From Calditrichia bacterium (GTDB taxonomy: Bacteria; Calditrichota; Calditrichia; RBG-13-44-9; J075): DNA of 41,467 nucleotides. The notes below the pieces were generated by a model. The model searched no databases and was not told where the DNA came from. It saw only the letters and a program-made list of their open reading frames with translations. The position numbers and the translations under genes were made by a program. Location: contig JANQQU010000031.1 in NCBI GenBank assembly GCA_028284905.1, positions 1-41,467 of the forward strand, given 5' to 3'. Shown in pieces: positions 19,429 through 33,439 of this stretch (positions are counted from its first letter, which is position 1; every line of letters begins with the position of its first letter).

Positions 19429-19887
19429 CTATGCCTTTTGCAAACTTTCCACCAGTGCCCAGCGAGCATCATCATCCAGACTTTTATTGCGATGGTAGGT
19501 CAGCGCCAGGGCAATGCAGGATTGCAACGCTTCCGCAGGAATTTTTTCATCCAGCTTAAAAACGATTGCCCGATTGCCTTCGAAATTAAATACTTGCGAA
19601 TATTTCTCCCGAAATGCCGGCACCAGGTTCGCGGTGCATTTAAAGTACATTGCATATTGCTCCGGCTTCGATTTCTTCCAATCGATCCGAACGGTGCTTC
19701 CGCTTTTTGTTTTTGGGGTCAAATAACTCGGCTCCCCCCACTTAAGCGTTTCCTCGATTTCCCCAACGCCTTCAATCGCCGCCGCCGTTTCCAGGATCAA
19801 CTGCCGCAGAAACAATATTTTTTCACGAATCTCTCCCGGATAACGCTGAAAAACCGCCGCAACTTCCGGACTGTCTATCTTCTTCAA
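19429..19887 (-). CDS. DUF1801 (YdhG-like) protein
   Basis: This small cytoplasmic protein of about 152 residues matches the DUF1801/YdhG group: YPGEIREKILFLRQLI near the N-terminus, then ETLKWGEPSYL and a late AIVFKLDEKIP. Some relatives were described as frataxin-like iron chaperones, but function is not established here. The frame stays open to ATG 19968 only because the heptamer array 19905-19967 is translatable; that ATG shares a base with the RidA stop codon. The site AAAGGTGG lies 7 nt upstream of TTG 19887, making TTG the best start; GTG 19893 is an alternative. It converges with the galactokinase gene, 10 bp away. Confidence 0.75.
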   Translation of the reverse strand: MKKIDSPEVAAVFQRYPGEIREKILFLRQLILETAAAIEGVGEIEETLKWGEPSYLTPKTKSGSTVRIDWKKSKPEQYAMYFKCTANLVPAFREKYSQVFNFEGNRAIVFKLDEKIPAEALQSCIALALTYHRNKSLDDDARWALVESLQKA

Positions 19888-19904
19888 ATTCACACCACCT
19901 TTCA

Positions 19905-19967
19905 AATGTGGAATGCGGAATGTGGAATTCGGAATTCCGCATTCCACATTCGACATTCCGCATTCCA
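19905..19967. repeat. heptanucleotide tandem array (AATGCGG / CATTCCG type)
   Basis: Nine 7-bp units run without slip from 19905 to 19967: AATGTGG, AATGCGG, AATGTGG, AATTCGG, AATTCCG, CATTCCA, CATTCGA, CATTCCG, CATTCCA. The two halves are inverse complements, so the whole array is a palindrome. It ends at the RidA stop codon (19968-19970) and fills the spacer up to the ribosome site of the DUF1801 gene. Confidence 0.92.
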
Positions 19968-20504
19968 TTAATCTCTGATTTGTACAATCGCCTCAACTTC
20001 GCAGACTATATTCCAGGGCAGGGATACCATTCCAACGGCTGAGCGGGCATGTTTACCACGTTCGCCAAAGACTTCAATCATTAAATCTGTATACCCGTTG
20101 ATCACTTTCGGATGATCGGTAAAATCGGGGCCAGCATTCACCATACCGAGCACCTTAACAATTTTTTCTACTCTGTTAAGATCACCAAGTTCTGTTTTAA
20201 GAACGCAGAGGTGACTGACTGCTGTTAGCCGTGCAGCTTCGTAGCCTTCTTCAACAGTAAGATCGCTGCCAACTTTCCCGGTAATGCGGCTGCCGTCTAA
20301 AGTGCGAGGGCCGTTACCGGATAAAAATAGCAAGTTGCCGCTCCGAACTGCCAGAGAAATATTGATCCCCGGAGGCATTCTCATTTCAGTCAACTCAATG
20401 CCCAATTCAGATACTCGCGCCTCCACATCATAGTCGTACAAGGGTTGTTCCACCTCGTTACATGCAAATAAAACGACAAAAAATAGCAAAAAAAGATATC
20501 TCAT
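19968..20504 (-). CDS. RidA (YjgF/YER057c/UK114) family lipoprotein
   Basis: This is a 178-residue RidA-family protein preceded by a lipoprotein signal, MRYLFLLFFVVLFACNE, lipobox near residue 15. The family core is present: LLFLSGNGP, EEGYEAARLTAVSHL, and ARSAVGMVSLPWN, which holds the conserved Arg used by RidA deaminases to hydrolyse reactive enamines/imines, followed by CEVEAIVQI. RidA proteins are normally cytosolic, so export is unusual. AAAGGGG precedes ATG 20504; a longer frame exists only through the heptamer array and is rejected. It follows the D-aminoacylase-like gene on the same strand, suggesting periplasmic amino-acid derivative metabolism. Confidence 0.87.
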   Translation of the reverse strand: MRYLFLLFFVVLFACNEVEQPLYDYDVEARVSELGIELTEMRMPPGINISLAVRSGNLLFLSGNGPRTLDGSRITGKVGSDLTVEEGYEAARLTAVSHLCVLKTELGDLNRVEKIVKVLGMVNAGPDFTDHPKVINGYTDLMIEVFGERGKHARSAVGMVSLPWNIVCEVEAIVQIRD

Positions 20505-20514
20505 ATTAACCCCT

Positions 20515-20556
20515 TTACAATTCGGAATTCGGAATTCCGCATTCGACATTCCGCAT
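20515..20556. repeat. heptanucleotide tandem array (TCGGAAT / TCCGCAT type)
   Basis: Five clean units (TCGGAAT, TCGGAAT, TCCGCAT, TCGACAT, TCCGCAT) plus one degenerate unit run from 20515 to 20556. The array ends at the stop codon of the D-aminoacylase-like gene (20557-20559) and occupies the spacer up to the RidA ribosome site. It is the same sequence family as the array at 19905-19967. Confidence 0.9.
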
Positions 20557-22233
20557 TTAAACACCTCGAACAACTATACCCGGCAATTTACCGCTGTACT
20601 TTTCCTGATCAATGACGATTTCTCCATTCACAATCACATAAGGAATTCCACTGGGATAGCGGTGGGGATCTCCCCAGGTGGCGTTATCGATGACTGTTGC
20701 GGGATCGAAGATGGCGACGTCGGCAGCATAGCCCTCTTTTAACCAGCCGCGATCTTTTAGGTTGAGCATCGCTGCCGGCAGTGCAGTAATTTTCCGAACC
20801 GCTTCCTCCAGGGGCATAATACCATCCTGTCGTACATATTTGCCGAGCAGGCGGGGAAAAGTGCCGTAGCCGCGGGGATGCGGATTACCGCGATGCAGCG
20901 GACCTTCATTCGCCAGGGAAGAGGCATCGCTGGCAGTCATGCAATAATCGTAGGCGAGCAGACGGGAAGTGTTCTCTTCGCTCATGGCAAATCCAACCAT
21001 ACCACCTCCACCGTTCTCATTTTGGATTAAACTCAGCAAAAGCTGGTAAGGATCGCTGCCATCGCTCGTCAATTCTTCCAGATGCTTCCCTTCATACTGT
21101 TTGCGCTGCTCATTTTTGCGCAGAGAAGAAATCATTACCGAGGCCCAGCCGCCGATTTTATCAACCTTGGCGGTCACCGCATTTTGGATGGAATCACTCA
21201 GAGCCGCATCCTGCAGGCGGGACATGAAGCGATCGCTGCCACCTTCCCGGGACCAGAGTGGAAAAAGCGAGGAGAGGCCGGTGCTGTAGGCGACATAGGG
21301 ATAGCGGTCGCAGGAGACGGTCATCCCGGTGGCGCGGGCGGCATCCAGGCGGGCGATCATCGCATCCATTTTGTGCCAATTGCGGCGCGCGGAGGCTTTC
21401 ATGTGGGATATATTTAAATCAACCCCGGCGGATTGGGCAATCGTGATCGCCTCTTCCAGTGCCTCCAGCACGGTATCATCTTCGTTACGCATATGGCTGG
21501 AATAGATGCCCCGGCCATTCATCGCTTTGCAGATGGCAATAATCTCATCGGTGCTGGCAAAGCTCCCCGGTGTATACTCCAGCCCGGAAGATATACCGTA
21601 AGCGCCTTGCGCAAAAGCCGTGGCAGCGAGCTGTTGCATTTCGGCAATCTCTGCGCTCGTTGCCGGGCGATCATCTTCTCCCACCACACATTGCCGTAAA
21701 GTGCCCTGACCGAGCATGCTGAGGGCGTTGGTAATCATTCCCCGTTTTTCCAGTAGGGCGAAATATCCCGCGAAATCATCCCAACCCTTATCATTTCCAA
21801 GAATTTTTTGAAAGCGGGACATGCGTGAGTCTCGCATGTCGGCATTTAGTGGTGCCATGGAACCGCCGTCCTGCCCAAGCACCTCCAGGGTCACCCCCTG
21901 ACGCACTTTCGATTGCGGATTGCCGCCCATCAGCAATTCATCATCGCTATGGGAATGGAAATCGATAAATCCCGGCGCGACGGCCAAACCAGCGGCATCG
22001 ATCTTTCGGGCAGCGGAACGATCTTTTAAATCGCCAATTGCGGTAATGCGCCCGTCGCGTATCCCGACATCACCGACACTGCCTGGTTGACCACTGCCAT
22101 CAAGAATAAGGCCACCAACGACGATAAGATCGAAATCATATAACCCCTGGCAGGAAAACCCCCAAAGGGCAGTAGCGGTGGCAATACCGCTGCTGATTTT
22201 CATAAAATGTCGGCGGGAAATGGTTTTGGGCAT
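20557..22233 (-). CDS. N-acyl-D-amino-acid deacylase family amidohydrolase, Tat-exported
   Basis: This is a 558-residue amidohydrolase of the D-aminoacylase family. A twin-arginine signal, SRRHFMKIS at residues 5-13, precedes a hydrophobic stretch ending in GFSCQG, so it may be a Tat-exported lipoprotein. Metal-site features are DFHSHSD near residue 93, ISSGLEYTPGS near residue 215, a metal-ligand region YSSHMRNE and a late TASDAS near residue 437. Such enzymes cut N-acyl-D-amino acids (or D-amino-acid-containing peptides). Its pairing with an exported RidA-like lipoprotein suggests a joint role outside the cytoplasmic membrane. Specificity is not visible from sequence. Confidence 0.9.
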   Translation of the reverse strand: MPKTISRRHFMKISSGIATATALWGFSCQGLYDFDLIVVGGLILDGSGQPGSVGDVGIRDGRITAIGDLKDRSAARKIDAAGLAVAPGFIDFHSHSDDELLMGGNPQSKVRQGVTLEVLGQDGGSMAPLNADMRDSRMSRFQKILGNDKGWDDFAGYFALLEKRGMITNALSMLGQGTLRQCVVGEDDRPATSAEIAEMQQLAATAFAQGAYGISSGLEYTPGSFASTDEIIAICKAMNGRGIYSSHMRNEDDTVLEALEEAITIAQSAGVDLNISHMKASARRNWHKMDAMIARLDAARATGMTVSCDRYPYVAYSTGLSSLFPLWSREGGSDRFMSRLQDAALSDSIQNAVTAKVDKIGGWASVMISSLRKNEQRKQYEGKHLEELTSDGSDPYQLLLSLIQNENGGGGMVGFAMSEENTSRLLAYDYCMTASDASSLANEGPLHRGNPHPRGYGTFPRLLGKYVRQDGIMPLEEAVRKITALPAAMLNLKDRGWLKEGYAADVAIFDPATVIDNATWGDPHRYPSGIPYVIVNGEIVIDQEKYSGKLPGIVVRGV

Positions 22234-22857: not shown

Positions 22858-22868
22858 AAAATACATTA

Positions 22869-22917
22869 ACGATCAACGATCAACGAACAACGAACAGCGA
22901 ACAGCGAACAGCGAAAG
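22869..22917. repeat. heptanucleotide tandem array (ACGAACA type)
   Basis: Seven perfect-phase 7-bp units cover 22869-22917: ACGATCA twice, ACGAACA twice, GCGAACA twice and GCGAAAG. It lies upstream of the DinB-like gene, in the gap before the plus-strand symporter gene. Confidence 0.93.
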
Positions 22918-27220: not shown

Positions 27221-30200
27221 ATGATTAGCAATACGCTAAATCTTATTATCTTAATAGGGGATCGGTTTTTTAAGGTCGGTTCCTTATGCTATTTTTTTAT
27301 CTTGCTATTCACTGTTGTAACGTTCTGCCAACCACGATATAGTCTAACCGACTTACCCGACTGGTTATCACCGCAATCGAAATCCCCACTCCTGAAGTTT
27401 GAACATTATACCATAGAACAAGGCGCGCCCGCGAATGAATTCCTCGCGTTGCTGCAGGATCGCCTCGGCTTTTTGTGGATTGGTACCGGCAACGGGCTGG
27501 CTCGTTACGACGGCTTTCACTTCAAAAACTTTTTTCATGATTCGGATGATTCAACCACGCTGAGTGATAATTGCGTCTGGTCTTTATTGGAAGATCAGCA
27601 GGGAATGATCTGGGTCGGCACGGAATCCGGTGGTTTGAATCGTCTGGATCCTGCGACTGGACGCGTTACGCGCTATATCCATCAAGCGGAAGACACCAGC
27701 AGCATCGCTGATGGCTATGTGCTGACGCTCTTCGAGGATCATCAGCAGACTCTCTGGGCGGGATTGCGCGGAGGGGCCTTAAATCGATTCAACCGGGAAA
27801 GTGGCACGTTTACAAGATACACTCATCGGGAAAGAGATACGACCAGCCTCGGCAGCAATTTCGTTGTGGATATTCTTGAAGACAGCAAGAAGCGCTTCTG
27901 GGTGGTTATGCGTGGGGGCGGTCTACAAATGATGGATCGGGAAAGTGGGCAATTCTCTTCGCCCCCATCCCATCCGGATCCCGCTAAACGCTTGGAAACA
28001 AAAAGTTTGACGGCGATCGTTGAAGACCCTGAAGGTAGACTTTGGCTCGCATCCACGGACCATGGACTTTACTTGATGAACGAAGAGAAAGCGGTCGATA
28101 AATCTTCCTGGGCATTTGAGCAACAGCCTTTCAATTTTTCTGAAGATCCATCGCCACAGGTCCACATTTTCCGGATGGCAATGGGGAGCAAAGGACGCCT
28201 TTGGCTGGCCACCTGGGGCAGTAGCTTACTACAGTTTGATATCGGAGAGCGCAGCTTCATCCAACATCTTGATGGGGACCGGAAACCCGGTTTCATCACC
28301 AATAATTACGTGCACAGCGTGCTGGAGGATCGTTTTGGAGTGCTTTGGGCTGGCAGCGATTACGGGCTGAATAAAGCGCTCCCGAAACAGCAACCATTCT
28401 CAGTGTTTCAAACGAATAGCGATGAGTTGCAAAATTTGTCTCGCACCAAAGTGCACCGCCTTTATCGGGATAGTCGCGGGAAACTTTGGCTGGGGACAGG
28501 CAATCTCAGCCGCCTGGAAAATGCACTTTCGCCCGCTGAAAAACCGCTCTTCCGAGTTTTTGAGAACGATCCGGAAAATCCCTATTCTCTGCCATACGGA
28601 AATGTTGAGGCGATCCTCGAAGATCATCTCGGGCGGATGTGGATTGGTCTCCGGGATGGCGGCTTAAGTTGCTATTTACCGGATGCCGATCGCTTCATTA
28701 ATTATCGCCACGATCCCGCTAATCCGCAGAGCCTTAGCCATAACATTGTCACCTCACTATATCAGGATTCGCAAAAACGATTATGGATTACTACACTCGG
28801 AAATGGCATCGACGTGTTGCAGTTAAACGATCAGGCGCTTACCGGAAAGGAAACTTTCCGTAATATGCGCATTGAGACCGACCTGAAGCCGAATGACAAA
28901 CTCGATAGCTGGCTGACCTGGACGCTGCTGCCGGATACGGCGGGAATGTTCTGGGTGGGGACCAGCGGCGGACTATTTCACGTTCGCCCGGAGGATGGCA
29001 AGGTGCTGGCGACTTATCGGCAAGATGCTAATAATCCTGCTTCGCTCTCCGATAATCATATTCGCCACTTGTATCTCGATCCAGAGGGGATATTGTGGAT
29101 TGCCACGCTCAGCGGTGGCCTTAACCGCCTCGATCCTTCCACAAAATCCATGACGCATTATCCCATCGGGGAAGGTGTGGCAACATATAATGTCGACTGG
29201 ATTCAGCCGGACCAACGGGGCAATCTTTGGCTGGCCACTTCCGGTGGGCTATTCCGCTTTGATCCGCGGAACGGCTCGCAAAAGGGGTTTACTGCAGAAG
29301 CCGGCATTCCCTGGAGTGGAATGGAATGTGGACTGCTGGATGCCGATGGGCGGATGATTGTTGGCGGCACCGACGGCCTGATAACGTTTTATCCTGAAGC
29401 TGTTCTCGATAATCCCCATCCACCGGCCGTCGCTTTTACCGGGCTGGATCTGTTTAACCAGCCGGTCTCTATTGATGCGCCGGATTCTCCCCTGCAAAAG
29501 CAGTTGAGCCATAGCGATCCCTTTACCTTGCGGCACGATCAAAAAGTGCTCACATTCCGCTATGTTGGTCTGCATTTCGCCGATCCGGAAAATGTCGAGT
29601 ATGCCTATAAGCTGGAAGGATTTGATGATAACTGGAGCTACGTCGGGCCGAAACGGGAAGCGACTTACACCAATCTTTCTCCCGGCAATTATCGCTTCCG
29701 GGTAAAAGCGGCTAATGCGGATGCGGTCTGGAATGAAGCAGGGGCGATGATCGACTTTCAGGTGCTCCCGCCCTGGTGGCGAACCTGGTGGGCCTATTTG
29801 ATTTATTTCCTCACTGCCGCCGCGCTCTTTTTATCATTACGGCGTTATGAGCTGAATCGTCAAAGTTATAAGCATCAATTGGAGCTGGAAAAAGTTGAAG
29901 CGGATAAACTGAAGGAATTAGATGGCCTGAAATCGCGCTTCTTTGCGAATATTTCCCATGAATTCCGGACGCCACTAACGTTGATACTGGGACAAATTGA
30001 CAGCGTGCTGGAAACCCAATCGGATGATCGCAATGCCAACCGCCTGAGCATGGCCCGGCGCAATGCCGATCGCTTGCAGCAGCTGATTAATGAATTGCTC
30101 GACCTTTCCCGGCTGGAGGCAAATCGAGCAACTCTTGCCGCCCGGCCGGTGCAATTTCTTTCTTTTCTACGTGGATTGGTCTTCTCCTTTGAAACCCTGG

Positions 30201-31516
30201 CGGAAGACCGGGAAATTCAATTATCGTTTGATGCAATGCCCAAAAATCTGGAAAATATCGAAGTCTTTATCGATCCTGGCCGCCTGGAAAAAGTGTTTCT
30301 CAATCTGCTTTCCAATGCGATGAAGTTTACGCCGAGAAAAGGCACGGTGGCAGTAATTGTCCGCGGACCGATTCCCTTACCGGAAAATTCTGCTGGCGGA
30401 GAAGCAATTGAAGTGCAAGTGCAAGATAGCGGCAGCGGCATTCCCGCCGATCAACTCCCGTTCATTTTTGATCGCTTCCATCAGGCAGGTGATGCCGTCT
30501 CCGGCGAACTGCGCGGCACCGGCATCGGTCTGGCACTGGCCCGCGAGGTCGTCGAGTTACATCACGGACAGATTTCCGCGGAAAGCAAAGTCGGGGAAGG
30601 AAGTGTTTTTACTGTGATCCTACCGCTGGGCCGGGAACATCTTCAACCGGAAGAAATTACTCAAGAAAATGTGGAATTTGGAATTTGGAATGCGGAATTG
30701 GAAAAATATAATTCCGAATTCCCAACTCCGAATTCCGAATTCCCAACTCCGCATTCCGAATTCCCATATGTTTTGATCGTCGAGGACAACCAGGATGTGC
30801 GTCACTACCTTCGCGATCATCTGGAAAAAGACTTCCGGGTCGGAGAAGCCATTAATGGGGAAGAAGGTCTGCAAAAGGCGCGGGAGGAATTGCCCGATCT
30901 GATCATCAGCGACGTGATGATGCCGAAAATGGATGGCTACGCCTTTAGCCGGGAAATTCGCCGGGATGAACTTACCTGCCATATCCCAATCATCATGCTG
31001 ACTGCCCGGGCCGCCGAAGCGGATAAAATCAGTGGATTGGAAACCGGTGTCGATGCCTATCTCACCAAACCGTTTAGTCCCCGGGAGCTGCTGGTGCGGG
31101 TGCATAATTTGATCGCCATGCGCCAAACTCTGCGGGAGCGTTTTCGTACTGCTACCATCGTTAAACCTGCCATGGTCAGCGAAGTGCCGCTCGATCAGTC
31201 TTTTCTGGAAAAGGCGCTCGCCTTTGTCGAAGTGCATATGGAAGATGATGAATTGAATGGCGATCTGTTGGCGAATGAGATGAATATGAGCCTCTCGCAG
31301 TTGAATCGGAAACTCCGCGCCTTAATCGATCAACCGGCCGGGAAATTGATTCGCTCCCTGCGCCTGCAGCGCGCCGCGGATTTGCTGAAACAACAGGCCG
31401 GTACCGTAGCAGAGATTGCCTATCGTCTCGGATTTGGCAGTCAGGCGCACTTCAGCAAGATGTTCCATAAGCATTTTGGACAATCACCCTCTGAATATCG
31501 CCAATCTCAAAAATAA
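27221..31516 (+). CDS. hybrid two-component system regulator (propeller sensor, kinase, receiver, AraC-type output)
   Basis: This is a 1431-residue one-gene signalling system of the HTCS type. After an N-terminal signal or membrane segment come two seven-bladed-propeller-like blocks of reg_prop repeats (LWIGTGNGLARYDG, LWAGLRGGALNRF and many more, about 65-740), a Y_Y_Y domain (about 770-845) and one membrane helix near 860. The cytoplasmic side has HisKA with His913 (NISHEFRTP), an HATPase domain to about 1140, a receiver with Asp1231 (IISDVMMP) and a C-terminal AraC-type HTH (about 1330-1431). Such proteins bind periplasmic oligosaccharides and activate sugar genes. Residues about 1151-1183 between kinase and receiver are encoded by a DNA heptamer array. 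No polysaccharide locus adjoins it. Confidence 0.95.
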   Translation: MISNTLNLIILIGDRFFKVGSLCYFFILLFTVVTFCQPRYSLTDLPDWLSPQSKSPLLKFEHYTIEQGAPANEFLALLQDRLGFLWIGTGNGLARYDGFHFKNFFHDSDDSTTLSDNCVWSLLEDQQGMIWVGTESGGLNRLDPATGRVTRYIHQAEDTSSIADGYVLTLFEDHQQTLWAGLRGGALNRFNRESGTFTRYTHRERDTTSLGSNFVVDILEDSKKRFWVVMRGGGLQMMDRESGQFSSPPSHPDPAKRLETKSLTAIVEDPEGRLWLASTDHGLYLMNEEKAVDKSSWAFEQQPFNFSEDPSPQVHIFRMAMGSKGRLWLATWGSSLLQFDIGERSFIQHLDGDRKPGFITNNYVHSVLEDRFGVLWAGSDYGLNKALPKQQPFSVFQTNSDELQNLSRTKVHRLYRDSRGKLWLGTGNLSRLENALSPAEKPLFRVFENDPENPYSLPYGNVEAILEDHLGRMWIGLRDGGLSCYLPDADRFINYRHDPANPQSLSHNIVTSLYQDSQKRLWITTLGNGIDVLQLNDQALTGKETFRNMRIETDLKPNDKLDSWLTWTLLPDTAGMFWVGTSGGLFHVRPEDGKVLATYRQDANNPASLSDNHIRHLYLDPEGILWIATLSGGLNRLDPSTKSMTHYPIGEGVATYNVDWIQPDQRGNLWLATSGGLFRFDPRNGSQKGFTAEAGIPWSGMECGLLDADGRMIVGGTDGLITFYPEAVLDNPHPPAVAFTGLDLFNQPVSIDAPDSPLQKQLSHSDPFTLRHDQKVLTFRYVGLHFADPENVEYAYKLEGFDDNWSYVGPKREATYTNLSPGNYRFRVKAANADAVWNEAGAMIDFQVLPPWWRTWWAYLIYFLTAAALFLSLRRYELNRQSYKHQLELEKVEADKLKELDGLKSRFFANISHEFRTPLTLILGQIDSVLETQSDDRNANRLSMARRNADRLQQLINELLDLSRLEANRATLAARPVQFLSFLRGLVFSFETLAEDREIQLSFDAMPKNLENIEVFIDPGRLEKVFLNLLSNAMKFTPRKGTVAVIVRGPIPLPENSAGGEAIEVQVQDSGSGIPADQLPFIFDRFHQAGDAVSGELRGTGIGLALAREVVELHHGQISAESKVGEGSVFTVILPLGREHLQPEEITQENVEFGIWNAELEKYNSEFPTPNSEFPTPHSEFPYVLIVEDNQDVRHYLRDHLEKDFRVGEAINGEEGLQKAREELPDLIISDVMMPKMDGYAFSREIRRDELTCHIPIIMLTARAAEADKISGLETGVDAYLTKPFSPRELLVRVHNLIAMRQTLRERFRTATIVKPAMVSEVPLDQSFLEKALAFVEVHMEDDELNGDLLANEMNMSLSQLNRKLRALIDQPAGKLIRSLRLQRAADLLKQQAGTVAEIAYRLGFGSQAHFSKMFHKHFGQSPSEYRQSQK
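30672..30769. repeat. heptanucleotide array inside the hybrid sensor gene
   Basis: Fourteen 7-bp units (TGGAATT, TGGAATT, TGGAATG, CGGAATT, two degenerate, then CCGAATT/CCCAACT types) lie in frame. Since 7 and 3 share no factor, the DNA heptamer encodes a heptapeptide repeat, seen as NSEFPTP, NSEFPTP, HSEFPYV. It belongs to the same family as the arrays at 19905-19967 and 20515-20556. Confidence 0.92.
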
Positions 31517-31762: not shown

Positions 31763-33439
31763 ATGAAAAATTTAATACCGCAAATTATCTTCTTAGCATT
31801 ATTGTTTTTCAGTTTTGGATCATTACACGCACAGCCTGTCGACTTCCTCTGGACGGTGCAGGTCGAGGGCAATGGTTTCTTTGACGACGGCAGAGACATC
31901 GCCACCGATGGTGCCGGCAATATTATTCTTGCCGGACAGTTCGAAGGCTCAGCAACATTTGGCGATACAACTTTGAGCAGTTTCGGCTCTGCAGATATCT
32001 TCCTAGCCAAATATGATGCCGATGGCAACGTGCTCTGGGCGACGCAGGCCGGTGGCAGTAACTTTGATGAAGGCATTGCCGTGGCAACCGATGAGGCCGG
32101 TAATATTTTTCTCAGCGGCCATTTTGTAGAAACCGCCAGCTTTGAGGATACCAGCCTAACCAGCCTTGGTTTCCAGGATATTTTTCTTGCCAAGTATGAT
32201 GCTAGCGGCAATTTGCACTGGGTAAAACAGGCCGGTGGTAGCGAGACGGACATCGGTATCGATATGGCAGTAGACAATACCGGGAATGTTGCCCTTTGTG
32301 GTTTCTTTAGCGGTAGCTCAACCTTTGATAATACTACCCTGACCAGCGTTGGTTTCGAAGATATCTTTCTTGCCAAGTTCGATAGTAATGGCAACTTGCT
32401 CTGGGCAAAACAAGCCGGGGGCGATGGCACTGACAACTGCTTTGGCCTTGCCATCGATGCTGCGAATAATATTATGATCACCGGTGTATTCGCCGAAACG
32501 GCAACCTTTGCTGATACTTCGCTGACCAGCGTCGGCTTTGTGGATATCTTTCTCGCCAAATACGACAGCGACGGCAATTTTCTTTGGGCGGCACAAGCCG
32601 GCGGGCCCGATTTTGACAGCGGCGCCGGCGTTGCCAGCGATGAGGCCGATAATATTGTGCTCACCGGGACTTTTGGTTCCTTCGGTCCACCGAGCGGTGG
32701 AAGCGCTACCTTTGGGAATATTACCCTGAACAGCGCCGGCATGGGAGATGTTTTTGTGGCTAAATACGATAGTGATGGCAATGTGATTTGGGCGAAGCAA
32801 GCCGGTAGTTCCAGCTTTGACAGTGGCCAGGGTATTGCAACAGATAATGCCGGAAATATTGTTGTTACCGGTGGCTTTAACGATCAATCAACTTTTGGTG
32901 ATACGACCATGGCCAGTAATGGTCTTCTGGATGTCTTCATTGCTAAATACGACAGCGACGGTAATGTGCTTTGGGTGAAGCAGGGCGGCGGATCGGATTT
33001 TGATACCGGCATCTCTATCACTACCAATGCTGCCGGCGACATTCTTACCACTGGTTCTTTCCTCGGCGTTGCCGATTTTGATAATACCACCCTCACCAGC
33101 GGTGGTGGGCAGGATGTCTTTATTACGAAAATCGCCGGCAGCGTTACCGGTATCGAAGATGAATTGAATCAGCCGCGTTTGTTTACTTTGGCGCAGAATT
33201 ATCCGAATCCATTTAACCCCAGTACCACAATTGAATTTACCCTGCAAAAAAGCAGCTTGGTTCAGCTAACGGTTTATAATGTTTCAGGGCAGGCAGTTGC
33301 CAGGCTGGTTTCGGACAGACTGGCTGCCGGTCGCTATCAATACGAGTGGGATGCCAGCAATTTGTCCAGCGGCGTATATTTTTACCGGATCGATGTTGAA
33401 ACCCAATCTCTGGTAAAACGGGCGATTCTCTTGAAATAA
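31763..33439 (+). CDS. secreted SBBP-repeat protein with type IX-like C-terminal sorting domain
   Basis: This is a 558-residue exported protein: signal peptide ending at SLHAQP, seven beta-propeller-like SBBP repeats of about 60 residues (each near FLAKYDADGNVLWATQAGG), then a C-terminal sorting domain beginning near YPNPFNPSTTIEF and ending in YFYRIDVETQSLVKRAILLK. The sorting domain marks cargo of the Por/type IX secretion system, so the protein is probably released or attached to the cell surface. Its ligand is unknown. GTG 31751 is in frame, but GGAG (31753-31756) 6 nt before ATG 31763 fixes the start. The gap 31517-31762 holds no gene, only a short GATCAAC-type repeat (31731-31751). Confidence 0.9.
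   Translation: MKNLIPQIIFLALLFFSFGSLHAQPVDFLWTVQVEGNGFFDDGRDIATDGAGNIILAGQFEGSATFGDTTLSSFGSADIFLAKYDADGNVLWATQAGGSNFDEGIAVATDEAGNIFLSGHFVETASFEDTSLTSLGFQDIFLAKYDASGNLHWVKQAGGSETDIGIDMAVDNTGNVALCGFFSGSSTFDNTTLTSVGFEDIFLAKFDSNGNLLWAKQAGGDGTDNCFGLAIDAANNIMITGVFAETATFADTSLTSVGFVDIFLAKYDSDGNFLWAAQAGGPDFDSGAGVASDEADNIVLTGTFGSFGPPSGGSATFGNITLNSAGMGDVFVAKYDSDGNVIWAKQAGSSSFDSGQGIATDNAGNIVVTGGFNDQSTFGDTTMASNGLLDVFIAKYDSDGNVLWVKQGGGSDFDTGISITTNAAGDILTTGSFLGVADFDNTTLTSGGGQDVFITKIAGSVTGIEDELNQPRLFTLAQNYPNPFNPSTTIEFTLQKSSLVQLTVYNVSGQAVARLVSDRLAAGRYQYEWDASNLSSGVYFYRIDVETQSLVKRAILLK

Follow-up and report, generated by a model that had tools for sequence, protein, structure and literature searches.

In-frame intergenic heptamer repeats in two loops of the hybrid two-component sensors of a Calditrichia bacterium

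The window, meaning the whole stretch of 41,467 nucleotides analysed here, comes from a Calditrichia bacterium and contains an array of AATTCCG-type heptamers within a gene. This locus raises the question of how a repeat of the kind found between genes came to be translated inside a sensor protein, and of what it does there.

The translated array of the window gene

The host gene (27221-31516, plus strand, as are all its features given below) encodes a hybrid two-component sensor (HTCS) of 1431 amino acids. Pfam places all parts of an HTCS in this one chain: a Reg_prop propeller, Y_Y_Y, HisKA (PF00512, E 2.5e-17; aa 904-967, 29930-30121), HATPase_c (PF02518, E 4.3e-26; aa 1018-1137, 30272-30631), the receiver or Response_reg domain (PF00072, E 7.4e-28; aa 1184-1294, 30770-31102) and an AraC-type HTH (PF12833, E 1.8e-23; aa 1350-1428, 31268-31504). 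The key catalytic residues H33, N148, N152, D351 and K403, in the numbering of the alignment, are invariant over 51 HTCS. The ORF located 3′ of the sensor holds a 183-bp tandem repeat (1.9 copies, 74%; window 32319-32667).

The initial annotation described a heptamer array at 30672-30769. The array does lie there in frame, the ORF is open throughout and Tandem Repeats Finder (TRF) reports a period of 7; its layout, however, is not a simple direct one but consists of two inverted arms, half of which had been overlooked. The left arm (30668-30701) falls within a period-7 block at 30668-30703 and is made of heptamers in the CGGAATT orientation, with the units AATGTGG, AATTTGG, AATTTGG, AATGCGG and AATTGG. 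A short A/T-rich spacer (30702-30709) separates it from the right arm (30710-30766), where AATTCCG-type heptamers run in the opposite orientation. TRF describes this arm both with a period of 7 (7.9 copies) and with a period of 21 (2.7 copies, 97% match), the 21-bp higher-order unit being AATTCCGAATTCCCAACTCCG. The arms are complementary, forming an inverted repeat of 81% between 30668-30699 and 30710-30741.

The reading frame stays open across the array, which codes for residues ~1150-1182. As HATPase_c ends at aa 1137 and Response_reg starts at 1184, the array is a linker between kinase and receiver, just as it was first read. The left arm is translated as ...VEFGIWNAEL and the right arm as NSEFPTPNSEFPTPHSEFP; the frame contains ...VEFGIWNAELEKYNSEFPTPNSEFPTPHSEFPYVLIVEDN..., and the array as a whole is translated as VEFGIWNAELEKYNSEFPTPNSEFPTPHSEFP. 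Proline is present, and the earlier label of "Pro-rich" is generous for ~5 Pro in 30 residues. The absence of stops had been attributed to 7 being prime to 3, which is incorrect: TAACTGA is also 7 nt long and has stops in all three frames of one orientation (PMC4679880). A heptamer that is coprime with 3 yields one heptapeptide in all three frames, and whether it is free of stops depends on the unit.

The predicted RNA fold of the window hairpin has an energy of -42.6 kcal/mol, compared with -21.3 ± 3.3 for shuffles (z -6.5). AlphaFold2 modelling of residues 881-1299 gave a mean pLDDT of 85.6, with values below 50 only at model positions 274-299, which correspond to aa 1154-1179 of the linker (30680-30757), predicted to be disordered. 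The window array is a hairpin-forming repeat of the intergenic type that is translated in frame as a floppy linker. A second site of importance, termed loop A, was located by HTCS alignment at 30362-30406 as the β-hairpin loop in HATPase_c (RGPIPLPENSAGGEA). It sits between model strands E162-172 and E181-189, i.e., in a β turn. In the alignment, loop A of the window gene is without repeats, and many paralogues have repeats there.

The repeat family in the genome and in other bacteria

Exact copies of AATTCCGAATTCCG number 81 in the 8.55-Mb genome and are mostly intergenic, while the reversed control gives 0. The array is thus far beyond chance, and the repeat inside the gene is of the same family as that between genes, the latter as originally proposed. 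The census was based on 1.45 Mb of genome stretches, some of which were picked because they held arrays or sensors, together with genome-wide pattern searches. With a criterion of 18-of-21, 73 arrays were found in the 1.45 Mb and 0 in an equal-sized Markov control; 4 were in the 552 kb that came from consecutive stretches, namely contig C39 together with a portion of C61. According to a simple ORF caller, 36 of the 73 are intergenic. Most of the 37 "coding" arrays belong to HTCS, to short ORFs or to the ends of ORFs, the last being probable miscalls; where the ORF is short, the array is mostly at one of its ends. The window has examples of its own. One TRF array of the AATTCCG family (19905-19967) is at the 5′ end of an ORF (19429-19968, minus strand), probably upstream of the true start; another (20516-20557) is at a boundary between ORFs and carries an exact AATTCCGAATTCCG on the minus strand, as seen by TRF and pattern search.

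The distribution across bacteria is patchy. Among 40 genomes of the class, only the window genome has more than 3 exact copies of AATTCCGAATTCCG, and the other six genomes of its family have 0. In a wider collection, the exact 21-mer was found in at least Clostridia, Planctomycetes, Acidobacteria, Verrucomicrobia and Cyanobacteria, among others. The heptamer is abundant in many unrelated phyla, and AATTCCG arrays are sometimes in frame there too (many of loci L093-L208). One in Verrucomicrobia (L128) is in frame near residue 353 of a 975-aa ORF, in what looks by sequence like a loop of leucyl-tRNA synthetase.

Several further observations were made on these repeats. At G000:C12:214454-214643 (L036), a tRNA-like sequence is flanked by two hairpin arrays. 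A search of the window for Rfam and tRNA matches gave none. At 22868-22915, the window contains a heptamer array of an unlike kind, AACGAAC in 6.9 copies, and repeats of the TCAACGAACAACGA type are found at other places in the genome. Inverted arms were also seen; MITEs are defined by terminal inverted repeats, a target-site duplication and a partner transposase.

REP/BIME elements with RAYT transposases are short dispersed intergenic palindromes. The AATTCCG repeat resembles them in this respect but has no GTAG-type head that could be seen. Mobilisation of the repeats by a RAYT seems doubtful, as Y1_Tnp does not track the arrays: 33 of the 40 genomes have Y1_Tnp irrespective of arrays, and the 2 matches to Y1 transposase in the window genome are equalled or exceeded in its array-less relatives. 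No candidate for a mobilising enzyme emerged. Genome-wide heptamer arrays are also known from Xanthomonas and Nostoc, where GGGNATC-type units show a preference for non-coding DNA (Rehm et al. 2015, PMC4692102). The likeness lies in the genome-wide arrays; the GGGNATC repeats are G-rich, quadruplex-forming and under-represented in coding DNA, unlike AATTCCG.

Repeats in two loops of the hybrid sensors

Of 12 long genes with an internal exact AATTCCGAATTCCG, 11 encode an HTCS and the twelfth encodes a non-ribosomal peptide synthetase (NRPS). HTCS make up ~1.9% of the coding DNA, an estimate from 33 genes and one fragment, which gives a binomial probability of ~1e-18 if the events are independent; this is still very small with only five to seven independent events. 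AATTCCG arrays are present in 14 of the 33 full HTCS of the window genome, so the array is not special to this gene. All lie in one of two places, counted from where the kinase begins: loop A, at offset 155-186, or loop B, the HATPase-receiver linker, at offset 262-332; in the truncated C57 gene, placement in loop B was made by its neighbours. No arrays occur in the ~900-aa sensor part of the 33 full HTCS.

The same concentration is seen with 12-mers of intergenic repeats. These mark 35 coding runs, 24 of which are in 14 HTCS (11% of the coding DNA sampled); the remainder comprise one contig-end HTCS fragment, the NRPS and others that are mostly near ORF starts. Among the kinase-bearing genes of the sample that are without an AraC domain, 1 of 23 has a repeat, and this is itself the fragment of an HTCS at a contig end. 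In the NRPS (G000:C67:70751-70785, L058), the in-frame array is read as PNPNSEFRIPNSPKGQ in a loop of the adenylation domain, accompanied by a CCCCTTTGGGG-type insert.

Loops A and B are also occupied by other repeat families. Loop A of seven HTCS holds TCAGTTA heptamers, in many cases with the inverse unit TAACTGA after them, and the resulting peptides are of the form LSVISYQ...LITDN (e.g., QLSVISYQ...KLITDNCLLIT). A further palindrome, GGTAGGTGCGAAGC...GCTTCGCACCTACC, is found in loop B of C45 and C60, and inserts of the CCTGCCCCTTCGGGG type are present in several loops. When repeats of any family are counted, 18 of the 33 HTCS have them in translation, scattered over the family tree, the assignment in loop A being made partly by reading the peptides by eye.

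A genome of the same family and a different genus (G005) has a CCCCTTCAAAGGGG palindrome in loop A of four HTCS. The remaining G005 copies of CCCCTTCAAAGGGG lie between genes, in short ORFs or where ORFs begin, apart from one inside a 1015-aa ORF that may reflect chance. Loop B of one G005 gene (L278, C120) consists of four tandem repeats of ~20 residues (HPLQSIESHTEEFAGDASPQ) with a GGGGCGAAGCATCC palindrome. Three related kinases of the window genome (G000; C64:3871, C69:205179 and C75:171; L262, L264 and L267) have a CCCCTTCAAAGGGG-derived insert, IPLGPPSKGEAR (PPSKGEA), directly after the N-box helix of HATPase, and these sites are all three exact copies of the CCCCTTCAAAGGGG 14-mer in that genome. 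Eight HTCS sampled from G003 have loops without repeats, and G034, which is rich in TCAGTTA, has no exact repeats in its HTCS. The pattern is thus frequent but not universal.

The TAACTGA heptamers described from Beggiatoaceae, Cyanobacteria and Bacteroidetes (MacGregor 2015, PMC4679880) are mainly intergenic and patchy across phyla. Now and then, copies in the orientation that lacks stops are in frame, with the translations LSVISYQ and LITDN. The identical unit, with the same two translations, is what fills loop A of the seven HTCS. AATTCCG differs from TAACTGA in its self-complementary core, AATT, and in lacking stops whichever way it is oriented. The window genome has many inverted pairs, compared with a single indirect repeat reported for MacGregor's genome (PMC4679880).

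The closest parallel is provided by the palindromic elements of Rickettsia (RPE; Ogata et al. 2000, 2002) and by their Wolbachia counterpart. These palindromes have entered coding genes in frame, at segments that are unstructured or on the surface (PMC10969869, PMC2996958). The window repeat is likewise palindromic, in frame, in a disordered segment and present in many copies outside genes; the host genes are intact, and hairpins form, if not with every HTCS copy. RPEs, in contrast, are defined, conserved elements of ~100-150 bp (of the order of 150 bp); each family encodes its own conserved peptide, and they are found in many unrelated metabolic genes. The window repeat is a variable 7-mer array, and its insertions into genes are concentrated in two loops of a single family of signalling paralogues. 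It behaves as RPEs do without being one of them. No earlier report of these peptides, of the 14-mers or of a focus on HTCS loops was found in the open-access literature.

History of the loops and competing explanations

The explanation that we consider probable is that loops A and B are tolerant of insertion and collect in-frame copies of palindromic repeats resident in the genome, with some linkers moved between paralogues. A copy of the repeat with its two inverted AATTCCG-heptamer arms would have become fixed in frame in the disordered loop of the window HTCS. Loops A and B would act as sinks for any small repeat present between the genes of that genome, the copies being filtered by reading frame and lack of stops. 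At least one linker would later have passed from one paralogue to another, with gene conversion as the probable route. The catalytic domains remain intact, and the effect on signalling would probably be small. We infer the insertion event itself, the route by gene conversion and the near-neutrality of the outcome. Tolerance by itself does not account for the near absence of the repeats from proteins other than HTCS.

On the trees, arrays were gained or lost in HTCS many times. The array label changes 9 times on the kinase tree and 10 times on the receiver-HTH tree, with 10.4 and 10.8 changes in shuffles. A single ancestral array passed on by duplication was rejected, as the label is scattered on both trees. 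It was also considered whether the array peptide was seeded from the H-box, as GAATTCCG occurs in H-box codons and HEFRTP resembles SEFRIP. This was treated as coincidence because arrays exist in the opposite orientation (NSEFGIR), other heptamers behave alike and most copies are intergenic.

An adaptive alternative is that gain or loss of 21 bp alters the kinase-receiver tether, and loop A as well, and is kept for phosphotransfer or specificity. The 21-bp unit of the right arm fits the earlier suggestion of steps of three units and seven residues, and the concentration of repeats in one signalling family is in its favour. Loops with repeats are longer, if modestly so, with medians of 61 against 51 aa for loop B (p 0.004) and 26 against 17 for loop A (p 0.001). 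However, the loop indels examined between closest paralogues are of 12, 15, 18 and 30 bp, all in frame and none a multiple of 21, some being a 15-bp CCTGCCCCTTCGGGG-type insert. Identity at lag 21 is only slightly higher in HTCS arrays (0.78) than in other arrays (0.72), and the 21-bp period was rejected as a mark of coding selection on account of this small difference. The same loops are filled by unrelated repeats with unrelated peptides, and the linker of the window gene, at 46 aa, is at the short end of the range. Length tuning of this kind is therefore considered unlikely.

The shared repeats could alternatively promote the exchange of sensor, kinase and receiver-HTH modules, and be kept as a source of new sensors. 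The relevant evidence comes from C42, C91 and C57. The linker DNA of C42 and C91 is 92% identical, with flanks of 80% and 75% (p 0.001 and 3e-6), and that of C91 and C57 is 81% identical, with flanks of 59% and 65%. Array DNA inflates these linker identities; the segment between the arms, which is absent elsewhere in the genome, is still 96% and 86% identical. Linkers that are more alike than their flanks point to transfer of the linker between the paralogues of this trio, which lends direct support, in this trio alone, to gene conversion as its probable route. In most other pairs compared the reverse is seen, the linker being less alike than the catalytic flanks, and most array-bearing pairs show no such similarity. 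C45 and C60 are ~90-92% identical from HATPase to receiver and 67% in the HTH, which would suit an exchange of modules, but the change falls 3′ of the receiver and away from the array. For one other pair, exchange at the kinase-receiver junction was not significant (AU p 0.33 and 0.08), the kinase and receiver-HTH trees being without significant conflict; module exchange at the array was rejected on this test. Maintenance of the repeats as recombination hubs is slightly less probable again than length tuning.

Selection might instead act on the hairpin itself, through translation pausing, mRNA stability or DNA topology in long genes. The window hairpin is stable (z -6.5), and the median fold z of loop B is -3.0 with repeats versus -0.3 without (p 0.0006). 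Against this, several repeat-bearing loops have z near 0, the contrast in loop A is weak (p 0.05), and palindromic repeats give structure whether selected or not, making this a very improbable explanation. Finally, that intergenic copies were misjoined into genes by the assembly has a negligible probability: arrays do break assemblies, lying within ~500 bases of the ends of contigs C7, C22, C24, C32 and C41, and unit numbers may be unreliable, but the frame is kept through all HTCS arrays, these are confined to two loops within the genes, close paralogues share the array context, and a related genus has the same pattern with another repeat.

The preferred reading, of tolerant loops that collect resident repeats, extends what is known from Rickettsia, where in-frame palindrome insertion is seen sporadically, in genes unrelated to one another. 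In the present case the insertions are focused: in more than one genus, the same HATPase β-hairpin and the same kinase-receiver linker of hybrid sensors are filled by repeats of unrelated families. A caution for databases follows, as translated intergenic repeats such as NSEFRIPN, NSEFGIRN, QLSVISYQ and PPSKGG are neither domains nor evidence of homology. The HTCS of these bacteria also constitute a natural insertion-scanning experiment on histidine kinases, which poses the question of whether the loops are merely tolerant or are being diversified. It is conceivable, though improbable, that HTCS loops recruit repeats, which would travel among paralogues in the form of linker cassettes flanked by heptamer arms. 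If so, standing variants of loop length and sequence would diversify signalling in genomes with large HTCS families, and any repeat family of the genome could serve.
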